NCBI RefSeq assembly: GCF_009765775.1 | Contig: NZ_LMUU01000193.1 | Coordinates: 21,186 to 58,701, forward strand | Source: Beijerinckia sp. L45 | GTDB taxonomy: Bacteria; Pseudomonadota; Alphaproteobacteria; Rhizobiales; Beijerinckiaceae | Length of the DNA stretch: 37,516 nucleotides | Direction of reading: 5' to 3' | Part shown: positions 28,495 to 36,096 of the stretch, piece by piece | Layout: each line of letters begins with the position of its first letter | How positions within the stretch are numbered: the first letter of the stretch is position 1 | Made by a program: the position numbers and the translations under genes | Notes under the pieces: generated by a model | Told to the model about the DNA's origin: nothing | Databases searched by the model: none | What the model saw: the letters and a program-made list of their open reading frames with translations, nothing else

Positions 28495-29877
28495 TTAGAG
28501 GAAGGTCGACACGAGTTCCGGCGCTTCCGTCAGCGCGTGGGCCATAAAATCCAAGGCGCTAGCGATCTGTTCGCGCGTCGCCGGGCCGCCGAGGCAGACG
28601 CGCACCGATTCGCCGGGCTCCCCCAGCACCGTGAACGCATCGCTGGCGACGATGCCGATACGCGTCGAGCGCATGTGGCCGATGAAAGCCGAGCGCGTCC
28701 ACGGCCTGGGCAGCGGCACCCACAGATTGAAGCTGAGCGGATCGGCACGAAAGCTGCCCACCGGCAGCAGAGCCGTGGCAAGCTTCTGCCGGGCTTCCGT
28801 CTCGCGTCGGATGAAGCGAAGGATCGAATCGGCGGTGCCGTCCTCGATCCAGCGGGTGGCGAGCGCCACCGTCAGCGGCGAGGCCATCACATTGTTGGCG
28901 CGCAGCGCCGCTGCGAACGGCCAGCCCGATCGGGCGTCGGGCGCCACCACATAGGCCGCGCGCAGCCCGGCCCCGATGCATTTCGCCAGACCGGCGATGT
29001 GCCAGGTGATGTCGGGCGCGATCGAGGCGAGCGGCGGCGGCCCGTGCGCCGGGATGAAGCCATAGGCGTCGTCCTCGATGATCGGCACGCCGTGACGCCT
29101 GGCGACGGCGACGATCGAAGCCCGGCGTTCGGGCGGGATCGTCAAGGTGGTGGGGTTCTGCAGCGTCGGATTGAGATAGAGCGCCTTCGGGCGAAGCGCG
29201 CCGCAAGCCTCGGCGAGGGCGTCGGGATCGATGCCGTGCTTGTCCATCGGCAGGCCGACGAGTTTCAACCCCTGCTGCGCGGCGATGGAGCGAACGCCGG
29301 GATAGGTCAGCGCCTCGCAGAGGATCGCGTCGCCCGGCTTGGCGAGCAGCGCCAGGATGCCGGCGATCGCCGGGTGCGCGCCGGGCGTTACGAAGATGCG
29401 CTCCTGCGACGGCACCATGGCACGCCGACTGAGCCAGGCCGACGCCGCATCCTTGTCGGCGCGAGAGCCGCCAAACCCCTGGTATCGCAGCAAGGCGACG
29501 AGGTCGCGACTGACCTCGGCAAGCCCGGCGTTCATCCGTTCGATCAGATCGGGATCGGTCGGCTCCGGCGGCAGGTTCATCGAGAGGTCGACGGCCTCCG
29601 TGCGGGCCGGACGCGGGACGACGGGCTCGCGGGCCGGGCCACGCACAAACGTGCCCTGGCCGACGCGGGATTCGACGAGCCCGCGCCGCTGCGCCTCGAC
29701 GTAGCCGCGCGCCACGGTGGTGAAATCGATGGCGAGGCGCAGCGCCAGCTTACGCTGCGGCGGCAGCCGATCGCCGCGCGAGAGACGGCCCGTCTTGATG
29801 TCGTCGGCGATCACATCGGCAATCGCGAGATAGCGCGGCTTGTCGTTGTGAGAGAGATCGGGTGTCCAGTCGCGCAT
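28495..29877 (-). CDS. MocR/PdxR-family transcriptional regulator (GntR wHTH fused to class I aminotransferase fold)
   Basis: 460 residues. The N-terminal GntR-type winged helix (about 13-80) has IADDIKTGRLSRGDRLPPQR, ALRLAIDFTTVARGY and GLVESRVGQGTFV. The rest (about 105-460) is an aminotransferase fold binding pyridoxal phosphate: TPGAHPAIAGIL, LNPTLQNPT, EDDAYG (D270) and K299 in HIAGLAKCIGAGLR. MocR proteins sense PLP or amino compounds and usually activate or repress a divergent gene. Here the divergent neighbour, across 352 bp with repeated ATTGA(A/T)TGCA motifs, is the nitrilase cluster. That it controls this cluster is inferred from position and motif layout. Confidence 0.9.
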   Translation of the reverse strand: MRDWTPDLSHNDKPRYLAIADVIADDIKTGRLSRGDRLPPQRKLALRLAIDFTTVARGYVEAQRRGLVESRVGQGTFVRGPAREPVVPRPARTEAVDLSMNLPPEPTDPDLIERMNAGLAEVSRDLVALLRYQGFGGSRADKDAASAWLSRRAMVPSQERIFVTPGAHPAIAGILALLAKPGDAILCEALTYPGVRSIAAQQGLKLVGLPMDKHGIDPDALAEACGALRPKALYLNPTLQNPTTLTIPPERRASIVAVARRHGVPIIEDDAYGFIPAHGPPPLASIAPDITWHIAGLAKCIGAGLRAAYVVAPDARSGWPFAAALRANNVMASPLTVALATRWIEDGTADSILRFIRRETEARQKLATALLPVGSFRADPLSFNLWVPLPRPWTRSAFIGHMRSTRIGIVASDAFTVLGEPGESVRVCLGGPATREQIASALDFMAHALTEAPELVSTFL

Positions 29878-30229
29878 GGTCCTGCCATCGAGAGAAACGC
29901 GTCACGACGATAATTGAATGCAGTCAAATCGCCATGAACCTGCGGTCAGTCTTGCATTGCCTGCGGATCATTCCAACCGATTTCTTATCTCGGCTGTAAC
30001 CGATACTCAGCGTGATTGCAGTTCTGCATGCTGCCTGTTTTGCCGCCTTCGTGCGCGCAAAGCAGGCACATCGAACGGATCAGAGGCGGCCGTAATTGAT
30101 TGCATATTGAATGCATCCACTCGTTTAATGGTGAGAAATCAAAGGCAGCATACGGGTGGCACAGCCGTTGCGAAACGACCCCTGTCCACGGCGAGGCCGG
30201 GGCCCGGAAAATCCATTGAGGAGTGCGCG
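29878..30229. promoter_or_regulatory. Divergent MocR / nitB regulatory region
   Basis: 352 bp without a gene; markedly more AT-rich than its surroundings. It contains ATTGAATGCA at 29913-29922 near the MocR start, TGATTGCA at 30013-30020, and a tandem pair ATTGATTGCA (30095-30104) and ATTGAATGCA (30106-30115), 11 bp apart. nitB starts at ATG 30230 after GAGGAG. I see no certain -35/-10 pair. Confidence 0.6.
30095..30115. promoter_or_regulatory. Tandem direct repeat, candidate MocR operator
   Basis: ATTGATTGCA and ATTGAATGCA start 11 bp apart, so they face the same side of the helix. MocR/GabR-type regulators are known to bind direct repeats in their divergent promoters. A further exact copy (29913-29922) and a shorter one (30013-30020) occur closer to the regulator gene. 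Confidence 0.6.
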
Positions 30230-30712
30230 ATGCCAGCCGTAACGAAGCCAGCCAATCAGAAGGGCGACTTCCTGGTCGATTACGAACAGAAGGTTTTTGA
30301 GGACGTCAAAGCGCTTCCCGGCGAGAAAGCCCTCGTCACCTTCCACACGGTCGCGTTCGAAGGGTCGATCGGGCTCGTCAACCTACTGCAGGCCACGCGC
30401 ATCCTGCGCAAGGGCTTCGAGACCAGCATTCTGCTCTATGGCCCCGGCGTCACGCTCGGTCTGCAGCGCGGTTTTCCGACGCTCGGCGACGAGGCGTTCC
30501 CCGGCCATCTCGCGATGAACAAGCAGATCGAAAAGTTCATGACCGAAGGCGGCAAGGTTTTTGCCTGCCGCTTCGCCTTGCAGGCGCTCTACGGTCATGG
30601 CGAGGGAGCTCTCATCCCCGGCATCACCCCGATCAGCCCGCTCGACGTGCTGGATCTCATCCTGATCCATCGTCGCGAGAACTCGTTCATGCTCCACACG
30701 TGGACGCTCTAA
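30230..30712 (+). CDS. nitB: MSMEG_0572-family protein, NitB of the Nit1C nitrilase cluster
   Basis: 160 residues from ATG 30230 after GAGGAG. It begins [25 protein letters not shown] (given here by position, residues 1-25) and has [20 protein letters not shown] and [17 protein letters not shown], the DsrE-like fold pattern of the MSMEG_0572 'nitrogen starvation response' family as I recall it. It ends in [15 protein letters not shown]. No signal peptide. First gene of the plus-strand nitB-nitH cluster. Function unknown; present in all known clusters of this type. Confidence 0.84.
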
Positions 30713-30818: not shown

Positions 30819-31898
30819 ATGACGGAAAAGATCATCATCAGGGCGGCAGCGGCGCAGATCGCGCCGGTTCTCGACACGCCCGGGGCCACCCTCGATAAGG
30901 TTTTGCAGGCGATCGCAGAAGCCGCCGACCGTGGCGTGTGCTTCATCGTGTTCCCCGAAACCTTCGTCCCCTATTATCCCTATTTTTCCTTCGTCGAGCC
31001 GCCCGTGATTCAGGGCGCCGCGCATCTGAGGCTGTACGAGGAAGCGCCGACCGTGCCCGGCCCGGTGACCGAGGCCATTGCGGCGGCGGCGAAGCGACAC
31101 GCGATGGTCATCGTGCTCGGCGTCAACGAGCGCGACGGCGGTACGCTGTACAACGCCCAGCTCGTCTTCGACGCCGATGGAACGATGGTTCTCAAACGGC
31201 GCAAGATCACGCCGACCTATCACGAGCGGATGATCTGGGGGCAAGGCGACGGCTCGGGCCTCAAGGTGGTCGACACCGCGGTGGGCCGCGTCGGCGCGCT
31301 GGCCTGTTGGGAGCACTACAATCCGCTCGCCCGCTACGCGCTGATGGCGCAGAGCGAAGAAATCCACGCCGCGCAGTTTCCCGGCTCGCTGGTCGGCCAG
31401 ATCTTTGCCGACCAGATGGAAGTCACCATCCGTCATCACGCGCTGGAAGCCGGGTGCTTTGTCGTCAACGCCACGGGCTGGCTCAGCGACGCGCAGATCG
31501 AGTCGATCGCGCCTGACCCGAAAATGCAGAAGGGCCTGCGCGGCGGCAACTGCACGGCGATCGTCTCGCCGGAGGGCCGTCACGTCGTGCCGCCGATGAC
31601 CTCTGGCGAAGGCCTGCTGGTGGCGGATCTCGACATGGCGCTGATCACCAAGCGCAAGCGGATGATGGATTCCATTGGCCATTACGCCCGGCCGGAGCTG
31701 CTGCAGCTCCATCTCGATGCGCGGCCGACGAGCCCGATGGTGCGGCACGGGGCCGAGCCCCTTTCATATCCGACACCGGCCGCCCCGACCCTTCCTTTCA
31801 CCGCGGCAACCAAGAAGACCGAGGCCCATGACAACGACGCTTCTCCCGACGGAACAGCTGATCAACGAGTTGCAGTCCTTCGGGGTGCGGCTGGCTGA
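30819..31898 (+). CDS. nitC: Aliphatic nitrilase, NitC of the Nit1C cluster (Nit6803-like)
   Basis: 359 residues from ATG 30819 (AGAGG upstream). The carbon-nitrogen hydrolase triad is complete: E47 in [14 protein letters not shown]129 in [13 protein letters not shown]163 in [12 protein letters not shown]. Nitrilases of this branch (Synechocystis Nit6803) convert nitriles to carboxylic acid and ammonia; in Pseudomonas fluorescens the NitC homologue is linked to growth on cyanide. Cytoplasmic. The last 71 nt overlap the nitD reading frame. The C-terminal tail past about residue 325 (APTLPF onward) is low-complexity and may not belong to the fold. Confidence 0.92.
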
Positions 31899-32934
31899 TT
31901 CCAAGGTCGGGGCGGCAAGTCGGCGCGGTGGCGCCGGGCCCTCCGACCACAAGGCTGTCACCATCAACGGGCGCACCGTGATGGTGCCGATCCATACCGC
32001 CGCCTCGTTCGAGTCGCCGTATCGCTCGCTGGCGCCGGATGCCGATGGCTCGAGCATCATCGAGCGCGACGGCGTCACCGTCGGGCGCATCAGCTTTCCC
32101 AACCAGCCGCGTTTTTATGCGCTGCAGACGTTCGACGGCATTCCCTATTCCAAGATCGCGGTGCTGCACTCGAAGGACGTGCTGGCGACGACGGTGCTGC
32201 AGACCTGCATCCGCTATCAAAGCCGGACGAAAACCTGCCAGTTCTGCGCCATCGGCCAGTCGCTCGCCGCCGGACGGACCATCGCCCACAAGAGCCCCGA
32301 GCAGCTTGCCGAAGTCGCCCGCGCAGCGGTGCTGCTCGACGGCGTCAAGCACATGGTGATGACGACCGGCACGCCGAACGCCACCGATCGCGGTGCCGCC
32401 GTGCTGTGTGAAAGCGCCTTCGCGGTGAAAGCCGCCGTCGATCTGCCGATCCAGGCGCAATGCGAGCCGCCGGACAGCGACCGCTGGTTCGAGCGGATGA
32501 AGGCATCGGGCATCGACACGCTCGGCATGCATATCGAGGCGGTGACGCCAGCGATCCGCGAACGCATCATGCCCGGCAAGGCCAGCGTGCCGCTCGAGCG
32601 CTACATGGCGGCGTTTGAAGCCGCGGTGCCGGTGTTCGGCTGGGGCCAGGTCTCGACCTACATTCTCGCCGGGCTCGGCGACACCCGCGAGGCGCTGCTC
32701 GAAATGTGCAGCCAGCTGATCGCGCGCGGCGTCTACCCGTTCGTCGTTCCCTTCGTGCCGATCTCCGGCACGCCGATGGAAGATCACCCGACGCCGTCGC
32801 CGCTGTTCATGCACGAGGTCCTGTATCCGCTGTCACGCATGCTCAAGGCCGCCGGGATGAGCTCCGGCACGGCCAAGGCCGGCTGCGGCAAGTGCGGCGC
32901 CTGCTCGGCGCTGTCGTCCTACGAGAAGGCCTGA
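31828..32934 (+). CDS. nitD: Radical SAM protein, NitD of the Nit1C cluster (MSMEG_0568 family)
   Basis: 368 residues from ATG 31828, inside the nitC end. Biotin-synthase-like region: [14 protein letters not shown] (C127, C137, C140), which gives a C-X9-C-X2-C pattern instead of the usual C-X3-C-X2-[36 protein letters not shown] and [16 protein letters not shown] follow, typical of radical SAM TIM barrels. A second Cys group, GCGKCGACS (C353, C356, C359), lies at the C-terminus. These enzymes use a [4Fe-4S] cluster to make a 5'-deoxyadenosyl radical. The substrate is unknown. It belongs to the cluster by order and by family. Confidence 0.88.
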
Positions 32935-32938
32935 AGCC

Positions 32939-33487
32939 ATGGTCGCCGACCCGTTCAATCCCTTCGCCGCCTGCCACTTCCGCCTGAAATACGCGACGGA
33001 CCCGTGGGAGACGGCGGGCGCCGCGGCGCTGCGCCGACAGGTGTTCTGCGACGAACAGCAAATTTTTGAAGGCGATGATCGCGACGCCGTCGACGAGACG
33101 GCGATCCATCTCGTCGCGCTCTCGACCATGGCGGTGCTGGCCGACGAGGTCGTCGGCACGGTGCGCATCCATCAATCCGAGCCCGGCATCTGGTACGGCT
33201 CGCGGCTCGCCGTCGACGCGCGCTATCGCCGGGTGGGCGCGCTCGGTGCCGCGCTGATCAAGCTGGCAGTGTCATCCGCCAATGCGCTCGGCTGCATCCG
33301 TTTCTATGCCAACGTTCAGGCACAAAACGAGCTGATGTTCCGCCGTCTCAACTGGCAGCGCGTCGAAGAGGTGACGCTGCACGGCATGCCGCATGTGTTC
33401 ATGCAGGCGGACCTCGCCGCCTATCCCGCGCTCGACAACGCCCCCGAAGGCTTTCACGCGTTGGCCGGCAAGAAGGCGGCCGCTTGA
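32939..33487 (+). CDS. nitE: GNAT acetyltransferase, NitE of the Nit1C cluster (MSMEG_0567/Sll0787 N-terminal type)
   Basis: 182 residues from ATG 32939, four bases after the nitD stop. GNAT motif A is visible as GSRLAVDARYRRVGALGAAL (R-R-V-G-A-L-G binds acetyl-CoA), preceded by VVGTVRIHQ and followed by IRFYANVQAQNELMFRRLNW. N-terminal FRLKYATDPWETAGAAALRR is shared by the family. In cyanobacteria it is fused to the AIR-synthase-like protein (Sll0787); here the two are separate but overlap by one base (TGATG). Substrate unknown. Confidence 0.88.
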   Translation: MVADPFNPFAACHFRLKYATDPWETAGAAALRRQVFCDEQQIFEGDDRDAVDETAIHLVALSTMAVLADEVVGTVRIHQSEPGIWYGSRLAVDARYRRVGALGAALIKLAVSSANALGCIRFYANVQAQNELMFRRLNWQRVEEVTLHGMPHVFMQADLAAYPALDNAPEGFHALAGKKAAA

Positions 33488-34482
33488 TGTCCGGCCGCCC
33501 CGCGCCCGAGCTCAGCCTCGACGATCTCGCCGCACACCTGCTGGCGGCGCGCGGCATGGCGCATAAGACGGATATCGCCGATGTCGTGGCGTCGCTGGGT
33601 CTCGCGCAGAGCGCCGTACCGGTCGGCGACGACTGCGCGGCGATCCCCGACGGCGACGGGTTTCTGCTGTTCGCCATCGAAGGCTTCGTCAACGATTTTG
33701 TCGCCGCCGAGCCGCGCTTTGCCGGCTACTGCGGGGTGATGGTCAACCTGAGCGACATCGCGGCGATGGGCGGTCGGCCGATCGCCGTCGTCGACGCGCT
33801 GTGGAGCGACGGCGCCGAGAAAGCCGCGCCGGTGCTGGAAGGCCTGCGCGAGGCGGCAGCGCTTTATGGTGTCCCAATCGTCGGGGGCCACACCAATACG
33901 CGCAACAGCCATGGCCAGCTTGCGGTCGCCGTCTTGGGGCGGGCCGAAAAACTCATCACCAGTTTCGACGCGCAAGACGGCGACGTGCTGATCGCCGCCG
34001 TCGACCTGCGCGGCGGGTTTCGCGGCCAGAGCCTGAACTGGGACGCGAGCAGCGGCGCACCCGGCGATCGCCTGCGCGGCGATCTCGCGATCCTGCCGGA
34101 GCTGGCGGAGGCCGGTCTCGTTACCGCGGGCAAGGACATCAGCATGGCCGGTCTCGTCGGCTCGGCAATGATGCTGCTGGAATCCTCAGCCTGCGGCGCG
34201 CGCATCGACGTCGATGCGGTACCCTGCCCCGCCGGCATCGCGCTCGAGCGCTTCCTGCTGGCGTTCCCCAGCTTCGGTTTCGTGCTCACCGCCAGGCCGG
34301 ACAACGCCGGAGCCGTGCTGGAAAAATTTGCGTCCCGCGGCATCGCTTGCGCCGTCGTCGGTCACGTCGACGCGACGCGGAAAACAAAACTGTGGCGCGA
34401 CGGCGCCGAGGTCGAGATCTGGGATTTCGATCGCCCCTTCATCGGCTGTGCGCCAACGTCCGCGAGGTCGCTCCATGCCTGA
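33487..34482 (+). CDS. nitF: AIR synthase-like protein, NitF of the Nit1C cluster (Sll0787 C-terminal type)
   Basis: 331 residues from ATG 33487 (its A is the last base of the nitE stop). PurM-type ATP-binding fold: VGDDCAAIPDGDGFLLFAIE, GVMVNLSDIAAMGGRP, VGGHTNTRNSHGQLAVAVLG and the C-terminal lobe GKDISMAGLVGSAMML. These proteins phosphorylate or activate a carbonyl oxygen with ATP. It is not the purine enzyme; its job in the cluster is unknown. nitG starts 8 nt inside its end, so translation is likely coupled. Confidence 0.88.
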   Translation: MSGRPAPELSLDDLAAHLLAARGMAHKTDIADVVASLGLAQSAVPVGDDCAAIPDGDGFLLFAIEGFVNDFVAAEPRFAGYCGVMVNLSDIAAMGGRPIAVVDALWSDGAEKAAPVLEGLREAAALYGVPIVGGHTNTRNSHGQLAVAVLGRAEKLITSFDAQDGDVLIAAVDLRGGFRGQSLNWDASSGAPGDRLRGDLAILPELAEAGLVTAGKDISMAGLVGSAMMLLESSACGARIDVDAVPCPAGIALERFLLAFPSFGFVLTARPDNAGAVLEKFASRGIACAVVGHVDATRKTKLWRDGAEVEIWDFDRPFIGCAPTSARSLHA

Positions 34483-34785: not shown

Positions 34786-36096
34786 ATGATCGTCGAAGGC
34801 GCGCCGGACAAAGCCCCGGCCCAGCAGTTCAAGGGCCACGTTCCCGTCCTCATCGTCGGCGGCGGCCAGGCTGGTCTTTCCGTCAGCTACCATCTCAAGC
34901 AGGCCGGCATCGAGCATGTGCTGCTGGAGAAAAACCGCATTGGCTTCAGCTGGCGTTCGGAGCGCTGGGACAGCTTTTGTCTGGTGACGCCGAACTGGCA
35001 GTGTGCGCTGCCGGACTTTCCCTATCAGGGCACCGATCCCGATGGGTTCATGCTGAAGGACCAGATCGTCGACTACGTCGAAGCCTTCGCCAAGAAAGTC
35101 GACGCGCCGATCCACGAGGGCGTCGCCGTCACCGCGGTGCGTCGCAACGAAGACGGCCTGTTCGAGATCGAGAGCACGATGGGCGCCTGGACCGCCGATC
35201 AGGTGGTGATGGCGATCAGCGGCTACCACCATCCTTCGATCCCGCGTCAGGCGGAACGGCTACCGCTGGCGACGAAGCAGCTGCATTCGCGGGACTACAA
35301 GAATTCCGCGCAAATCCCGAAGGGTGAGATCCTCATCATCGGGACCGGCCAGTCCGGCTGCCAGATCGCCGAGGATCTGCACCTTGCAGGCCGTAAGGTG
35401 CACATCGCCGTTGGCAGCGCCCCGCGCTCTCCGCGCTTCTATCGCGGCAAGGACGCGATCAAGTGGCTCGACGAGATGGGTTATTACAAGACCACCGTCG
35501 CGACGCATCCCCTCAAGGAGAAGGTCCGCAAGAAGGCCAACCACTACCTAACCGGCCGCGAAGGGGGACGCGAAATCGATCTGCGCCGCTTTGCCGCCGA
35601 GGGCATGAAGGTCTACGGGCATCTCGAGACGGTGGATGGGCCGGCCCTGACCTTCAAGCCGGACCTGGCGAAAATGCTGGAGTCGGCGGACAGGACCTAC
35701 AATGGCATCCGCGCGATGATCGATGATTACATCGCGGAACACGGGATCGAGGCGCCGGCCGAGCCGGCCTACGTGCCGCCGTGGACGGTCACCACGGAGC
35801 CGACCGCCCTCGATCTCGACGCCGCCAATATCAAGACGGTGATCTGGGGCACAGGCTTCCGCGCCGATTTCTCGATGGTCGACATCCCGGTCTTCGACGG
35901 CAAGGGCTATCCCGGCCATGTCCGCGGCGTCACGCCGGTACCGGGCCTCTATTTCATCGGTCTGGGCTGGTTGTGGACCTGGGGCTCGGGGCGCTTTTCC
36001 GGCATCGCCGAGGATGCCCGCCATATCAGCGCTACGATCGGGACCAGATATTGGGCGGCGGATCTGGCTGGCGCACCGCGGACGCGGGTGGCGTAG
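34786..36096 (+). CDS. nitH: Flavin-dependent oxidoreductase, NitH of the Nit1C cluster (MSMEG_0569 family)
   Basis: 436 residues from ATG 34786 after AGGAG. FAD-binding VLIVGGGQAGLSVSYHL (about 20-36) and a second Rossmann motif, ILIIGTGQSGCQIAEDL, for NAD(P)H; NWQCALPDFPYQG and the late VIWGTGFRADFSMVD and GLYFIGLGWLWTWGSGRFSG blocks (FAD-binding end) fit class B monooxygenase-like enzymes. The predicted role is oxidation or hydroxylation of the cluster's metabolite using NADPH and oxygen. Last gene of the cluster. Confidence 0.9.
   Translation: MIVEGAPDKAPAQQFKGHVPVLIVGGGQAGLSVSYHLKQAGIEHVLLEKNRIGFSWRSERWDSFCLVTPNWQCALPDFPYQGTDPDGFMLKDQIVDYVEAFAKKVDAPIHEGVAVTAVRRNEDGLFEIESTMGAWTADQVVMAISGYHHPSIPRQAERLPLATKQLHSRDYKNSAQIPKGEILIIGTGQSGCQIAEDLHLAGRKVHIAVGSAPRSPRFYRGKDAIKWLDEMGYYKTTVATHPLKEKVRKKANHYLTGREGGREIDLRRFAAEGMKVYGHLETVDGPALTFKPDLAKMLESADRTYNGIRAMIDDYIAEHGIEAPAEPAYVPPWTVTTEPTALDLDAANIKTVIWGTGFRADFSMVDIPVFDGKGYPGHVRGVTPVPGLYFIGLGWLWTWGSGRFSGIAEDARHISATIGTRYWAADLAGAPRTRVA

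Follow-up and report, generated by a model that had tools for sequence, protein, structure and literature searches.

Direct repeats in the mocR-nitB gap of Beijerinckia sp. L45 as probable MocR operators phased on a predicted sigma-54 promoter

Results

A nit1C cluster with a divergent MocR-type regulator

The window, that is, the whole stretch of DNA that was analysed (37,516 nucleotides of Beijerinckia sp. L45, contig NZ_LMUU01000193.1 of assembly GCF_009765775.1), contains the following genes around a gap of 352 bp that separates the divergent mocR (minus strand) and nitB (plus strand):

28495-29877, minus strand: mocR, 460 amino acids, GntR-type winged helix followed by a class-I aminotransferase domain
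30230-30712, plus strand: nitB, MSMEG_0572/Sll0783 family, first nit1C gene (TIGR04044, 275.2 bits; cut-off 109.85)
30819-31898, plus strand: nitC, Nit6803-family nitrilase (TIGR04048, 557.7 bits, above cut-off)
31828-32934, plus strand: nitD, MSMEG_0568 family radical SAM protein (TIGR04043, above cut-off)
32939-33487, plus strand: nitE, MSMEG_0567/Sll0786 family N-acetyltransferase (TIGR04045, above cut-off)
33484-34482, plus strand: nitF, sll0787 family AIR-synthase-like protein (TIGR04049, above cut-off)
34786-36096, plus strand: nitH-like gene, MSMEG_0569 family flavin-dependent oxidoreductase (TIGR04046, above cut-off)

With six NCBIfam models above their cut-offs, the gene order matches the nit1C order nitB-nitC-nitD-nitE-nitF-nitH, and no nitG was identified in the cluster in the window. 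The nit1C cluster is here a gene cluster for the handling of nitriles and cyanide.

Both domains of MocR score above the Pfam cut-offs (PF00392 at residues 16-78, PF00155 at 95-440), an architecture that fits the MocR subfamily of GntR regulators. In an alignment with the PLP enzyme MppQ, Lys299 (within the sequence GLAKCIGAG) pairs with the SxSK lysine, and by this alignment the PLP-binding lysine is retained. The protein has no AAA+ domain detectable with Pfam and could therefore not open a sigma-54 promoter alone. The closest NCBIfam model is NF052286 (EhuR), with 445.6 bits against a cut-off of 480, and the same model is the best one for six further MocR relatives (394.8-466.7 bits). Membership in the EnuR/EhuR family was rejected, since the score falls below the cut-off and the operator layout described below differs; moreover, mocR adjoins nit1C and not ectoine catabolism genes.

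Repeated boxes in the mocR-nitB gap

The preliminary description of this DNA had reported a repeated ATTGA(A/T)TGCA motif in the gap. This is borne out by three exact copies, two of which form a tandem with a step of 11 bp:

29913-29922, plus strand: MocR box ATTGAATGCA, exact; mocR side, candidate autoregulatory site
30013-30020, plus strand: partial copy TGATTGCA; probably no site
30095-30104, plus strand: first of the two tandem MocR boxes before nitB, ATTGATTGCA, exact; offset -62 relative to TGG in the sigma-54 element
30106-30115, plus strand: second of the two tandem MocR boxes, ATTGAATGCA, exact; offset -51 from the same TGG
30157-30171, plus strand: sigma-54 type -24/-12 element TGGCACAGCCGTTGC (TGGCAC-AGCCG-TTGC) of the nitB promoter, exact match

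The partial copy, also part of the earlier account, is present as a sequence. It was rejected as a site, because its box-frame start, 146 bp before the sigma-54 element, is not among the offsets that are strongly conserved in relatives. Part of it is included in a terminator-like stem, GCAGTTCTGCATGCTGC, at 30018-30034 within the gap (one such stem, against a shuffle mean of 0.3), and no Rfam family was found between 28000 and 31000.

In the 5.67-Mb assembly, ATTGAWTGCA occurs exactly seven times, three of them inside the mocR-nitB gap, and the reversed pattern occurs once; with one mismatch allowed there are six matches in the window, against a shuffle mean of 2.7 (four of 100 shuffles reached as many). 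As the motif was derived from this same gap, both rarity figures were obtained after the fact. None of the four exact copies elsewhere in the genome has a second copy adjacent to it within the 140 bp examined.

Sampling of related loci

A search with MocR of 298 genomes of the family returned relatives in 95 at E <= 1e-60, and nitB is divergent and adjacent to mocR in 34 of the 50 loci examined from these family genomes. In a named genome collection the same arrangement was found in 61 of 80 loci, these being the best 80 of at least 561 relatives. The resulting 95 mocR-nitB gaps were reduced to 82 by dereplication (8-mer overlap below 0.5); related rows remain, and the gaps share ancestry, so box counts across them are not independent. 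Boxes in relatives were defined as ATTGAHTGYA with at most one mismatch, and 60 dinucleotide-keeping shuffles of the gaps served as control. One of the mocR frames (locus L025, G132:C91:47160-48533) contains one internal TGA, which may mean that the gene is defective or the sequence misread.

At the level of the phylum, the nitB cut-off was passed in 16 of 398 genomes. In 11 of the 12 loci examined from these, a MocR (42-76% identical) lies divergent beside nitB, and the twelfth has a sigma-54 activator; the sigma-54 element is exact in nine and has one mismatch in two more, and L188 gave none in the exact scan. In addition, 515 plasmid records carry nitB, with Klebsiella accounting for 374, indicating that nit1C travels on plasmids. 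Five plasmid loci of the 515 were examined: L201 and L203 (Rhodococcus) have neither a MocR box nor a sigma-54 match, and L204, with a 57% identical MocR, has a single one-mismatch box and no sigma-54 match. In L201, an Acetobacter pasteurianus plasmid, a 38% identical MocR is encoded on the same strand as nitB, upstream of it.

A conserved sigma-54 element in front of nitB

An exact TGGCAYN5TTGC lies 62 to 116 bp before nitB in 77 of the 82 dereplicated gaps, while in shuffles of those 77 gaps the pattern appears in a mean of 0.18 gaps and in at most two. The nitB promoter is accordingly assigned to sigma-54 on the strength of conservation across relatives and not from the single genome, and on this comparison it is very probably of that type. 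The source genome alone is not convincing, since the extended sigma-54 pattern gives four matches against three for its reversed control, and the one-mismatch element gives two matches in the window against 2.4 expected. These last figures are what one would expect should the TGGCAC-N5-TTGC match be fortuitous and nitB be served by a sigma-70 promoter. Such a reading is nonetheless very improbable given the conserved position of the element in relatives and the tight offsets of the boxes to it, and the gap in the window contains no match to a sigma-70 promoter, for nitB or for mocR.

No sigma-54 match with up to one mismatch was found in the remaining five of the 82 gaps (L024, L025, L081, L084, L086). 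These five retain MocR boxes, which raises the possibility of a switch in promoter type.

Opening of a promoter by sigma-54 polymerase requires an ATPase activator. The source genome gives one match for RpoN and seven for PF00158, five strong and two weak, and NtrC scores above its cut-off. No NitA orthologue was seen among these activators, two NitA-like proteins aligning only from about residue 297 onward. An NtrC consensus is not enriched in the gaps (present in 10, 6 and 13, where 7.3, 9.9 and 9.0 are expected), and neither a conserved activator site nor a conserved palindrome other than that of MocR was found among them, the enriched dyads between the box regions being mostly the mocR promoter.

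Boxes are phased on the sigma-54 element

The 77 gaps that carry the element, the window included, contain 260 boxes on one strand; the shuffles average 9.1 and never exceed 16. Measured from the TGG of the element, plus-strand boxes fall at -61 (33 gaps), -62 (14), -49 (30), -50 (14), -51 (6) and +6 (29), the largest count at any single offset in the shuffles being 2. Boxes are few on the minus strand, with at most eight of the 77 gaps sharing any one offset; the conserved pattern is thus one of direct repeats. The ranges -66 to -60 and -54 to -48 together hold a box in 71 of the 77 gaps, with both slots filled in 45, and conservation of the motif upstream of orthologous nitB genes, on which the preliminary description had made its case depend, is thereby upheld by footprinting in relatives. 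The offsets are fixed although the distance from the element to nitB ranges from 62 to 116 bp. The strongest period among the boxes is 11.25 bp (R 0.84, a value calculated without a shuffle control), and steps of 11-12 bp are as expected of MocR-subfamily operators built from repeats spaced by helical turns.

In 26 of the 77 gaps the spacer between -24 and -12 is ATTGA, which is expected by chance in about one gap in 1024 and which completes a box on the -12 element itself; in 25 of these 26 the box is an exact ATTGATTGCA. The spacer in the window is AGCCG, so that the third box, on -12, is absent and only the upstream pair is present. Offsets remain tight among the 51 gaps whose spacer is not ATTGA. 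A paired inverted box over -24/-12 was also considered and found no support, an immediate 5' CAAT being present in 11 of the 26 gaps with the -12 box versus 25 of the 51 without. Outside the class to which the window belongs, five of six loci have a relaxed box at exactly -27, and the sixth, L182, has boxes only at +6 and +19 (counts made without a shuffle control).

These data bear on the simplest alternative, that the repeats are due to chance or to an AT-rich promoter feature with no regulator involved. The motif was indeed picked after reading the gap, and its one-mismatch excess in the window is mild. Against this stand the number of boxes in relatives, far above any shuffle, and the fixity of their offsets. 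Furthermore, the exact tandem box occurs only four times in the 298 family genomes, each time in a mocR-nitB gap, and the reversed control is not found at all. The probability of a chance origin is consequently put close to nil. Most genomes with a mocR-nitB gap do not have the exact tandem, which is uncommon even there because the boxes vary.

The box follows mocR

The position of the boxes beside a sigma-54 element in most gaps, in the upstream zone typical of sigma-54 activators, would also be consistent with their being the enhancer sites of such an activator rather than sites of MocR. The distribution of the box across loci argues for MocR. Where no nitB lies beside mocR and the MocR is at least 60% identical, 24 of 25 distinct loci have a box with at most one mismatch no further than 150 bp from mocR (exact in 16), and the box thus precedes mocR where neither nitB nor a sigma-54 element adjoins. 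Where the MocR is less than 56% identical, one of nine distinct loci has the box. Here "no nitB" refers to the stretches examined, such genomes being free to carry nit1C elsewhere, and the 25 and nine distinct loci remain after removal of duplicates by hand from 33 and 18 rows. Conversely, two loci in which nit1C has a divergent sigma-54 activator in the place of MocR (L190 and L202) lack the box and carry a sigma-54 element with one mismatch, and the five gaps lacking a detectable sigma-54 element still have boxes. As the box follows mocR, and not nitB or the sigma-54 element, the enhancer reading was rejected as very unlikely. In a tree of MocR sequences, rows lacking nitB are interspersed with rows that have it, requiring six changes (the starred branches force five) where shuffled labels require a mean of 30.1; the tree was made by a quick method and carries long-branch warnings.

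Because nitB-less loci retain the box and the exact tandem is confined to mocR-nitB gaps, and because loci of the NitA type lack the box and gaps without the sigma-54 element keep it, the box is assigned to MocR. It is very probably the operator of the adjacent regulator, to which, judging from this comparison of sequences, MocR binds with high likelihood. The proposal of the preliminary description that the repeats are sites of the neighbouring MocR thus agrees with the wider sample, and copies upstream of both genes are as expected for its suggestion of autoregulation together with control of nitB. It had also invoked the binding mode of MocR/GabR regulators, of which a MocR operator finds support; the likeness to GabR itself is loose, EhuR/EnuR being the closest named model.

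Among the nitB-less mocR loci L058-L064, five of seven (L059-L063) have further boxes 80-140 bp past the end of mocR, and in L059 an amino-acid-type ABC transporter flanks the gene. In loci with boxes downstream of mocR, the regulator may have a second target.

Discussion

A model for control of mocR and nitB

The preliminary description overlooked the sigma-54 promoter of nitB, and its account, being incomplete in this respect, implied a different mechanism. When the element is included, two control systems appear to meet at the nitB promoter. We consider it moderately probable, as a whole, that MocR represses its own gene and gates the sigma-54 promoter at nitB. In this model, a PLP-binding MocR related to the ectoine repressor EnuR/EhuR would have the boxes as its operators. 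Bound on or beside its own promoter, it would block polymerase there, and autorepression is likely: 71 of the 82 dereplicated gaps have a box with at most one mismatch no further than 140 bp from mocR, and a sigma-70 promoter resembling TGACR-N15..19-TATRCR overlaps this mocR-side box in 28 of the 82 (counted without a shuffle control), as exemplified by GTGACA-N17-TATACG in L141.

At nitB, a MocR dimer would occupy the abutting pair of boxes, 62 and 51 bp before the -24 element, a position estimated at approximately -87 to -67 relative to the start point. The promoter would then be closed by two locks. The first would be the sigma-54 RNA polymerase itself, to be opened by a separate ATPase activator, for which NtrC would fit a role in nitrogen scavenging; the second would be MocR, which would keep the promoter shut until its PLP reacts with an amino or nitrile compound that the pathway produces or consumes. 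A nitrogen signal would thus arrive via sigma-54 and its activator, and a substrate signal via MocR. In relatives with the -12 box, the MocR site would cover the site of polymerase itself.

On balance, MocR is slightly more likely than not to be a net repressor at nitB. Repression is favoured because of the -12 box in relatives and because EnuR, itself a repressor, has its operators on elements of the core promoter; for the window, it is argued from relatives, since the -12 box is absent there and no sigma-70 promoter was found for mocR.

There is one principal alternative, namely that MocR co-activates nitB, its phased upstream site aiding the sigma-54 activator or the polymerase while self-repression is kept, as for GabR and the rhizopine MocR at divergent targets. 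The offset is kept within a few bp even in the gaps without an ATTGA spacer, the box at -27 outside the class lies approximately 22-23 bp nearer and suggests protein contact, and strict phasing also fits an activator that touches polymerase. The rhizopine MocR, moreover, activates the divergent mocB promoter, as far as described in the portion of the report considered here (PMC10107442). The box on the -12 element in a third of the gaps (26 of 77) suggests blocking instead, and EnuR, the closest studied relative, is a repressor according to the part of PMC8739950 drawn on. Co-activation is therefore regarded as possible but not probable, and repression by MocR is retained as the preferred reading.

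If the preferred model is true, the locus would allow the action of a PLP-dependent MocR on a sigma-54 promoter to be tested, with a signal of nitrogen limitation and a signal of substrate joined at one promoter. It would also predict an operator for the regulator of nitrile and cyanide nitrogen use in many soil bacteria, and the natural variants, with or without the -12 box, with MocR or NitA, and with or without sigma-54, would lend themselves to a comparison of mechanisms.

Comparison with known systems

The nearest named system is that of EnuR/EhuR/EutR. In the sections of PMC8739950 considered, EnuR is described as repressing transcription from operators that overlap elements of the core promoter, and the EnuR/EhuR consensus as an inverted repeat, ATTGT-N6-ACAAT. 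The two systems share the best NCBIfam model, a half-site (ATTGT) that resembles the ATTGA found here, and operators over elements of the core promoter. They differ in that the boxes studied here are direct repeats with a step of 11-12 bp, the target is nit1C and the promoter is of the sigma-54 type, whereas the available account of EnuR has an inverted N6 repeat and sigma-70.

More generally, most MocR sites consist of direct and/or inverted repeats set one or several helical turns apart, according to the parts of PMC5320631 that were available. GabR, TauR, PdxR and the rhizopine MocR resemble the present case in their divergent targets, same-face direct repeats and helical-turn spacing (PMC5320631, PMC10107442, both as available in part). 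Their boxes are different, being CTGGACYTAA for TauR and AAAGYGGYTCT for the rhizopine MocR in the same portions of these sources, and those accounts, as far as they were available, contain no sigma-54 element phased to the sites. For the rhizopine promoters, the authors saw no clear consensus for either sigma factor, in the available part of PMC10107442. The word nitrilase is absent from the main text of PMC5320631. In the open-access literature on MocR, nitrilase, sigma54, RpoN and nit1C, judged largely by title and abstract and including the portions of PMC5333837, PMC1199592 and PMC6677901 at hand, no description of a MocR operator on a sigma-54 promoter was found.

Control by nitrogen starvation has counterparts elsewhere for nit1C-like genes, the TIGR04044 family being named a nitrogen starvation response protein. 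The literature on MSMEG_0572 and sll0783, as far as it was available, includes papers on GlnR and NtcA, different global regulators in other phyla, and the available part of PMC3901256 states no NtcA control of the sll0783-type operon.

A further parallel is the NitA-controlled nit1C of Pseudomonas, which has the same operon, a divergent regulator and a sigma-54-type regulator in the portion of PMC11049912 considered. The sigma-54 element with one mismatch that precedes nitB in L190 and L202 extends the likeness to the promoter. Unlike MocR, which has no ATPase domain, NitA is itself a sigma-54 ATPase activator, and the NitA loci lack the box. Tentatively, and with more doubt than attaches to the model itself, the comparison may be taken one step further: across many Pseudomonadota, MocR might sit in the divergent seat that the ATPase NitA holds in Pseudomonas and Acinetobacter, and act directly on the sigma-54 machinery, with helically phased boxes that extend from upstream into the -24/-12 element, so that a PLP-adduct sensor would gate a sigma-54 polymerase opened by a general activator with no conserved dedicated enhancer.
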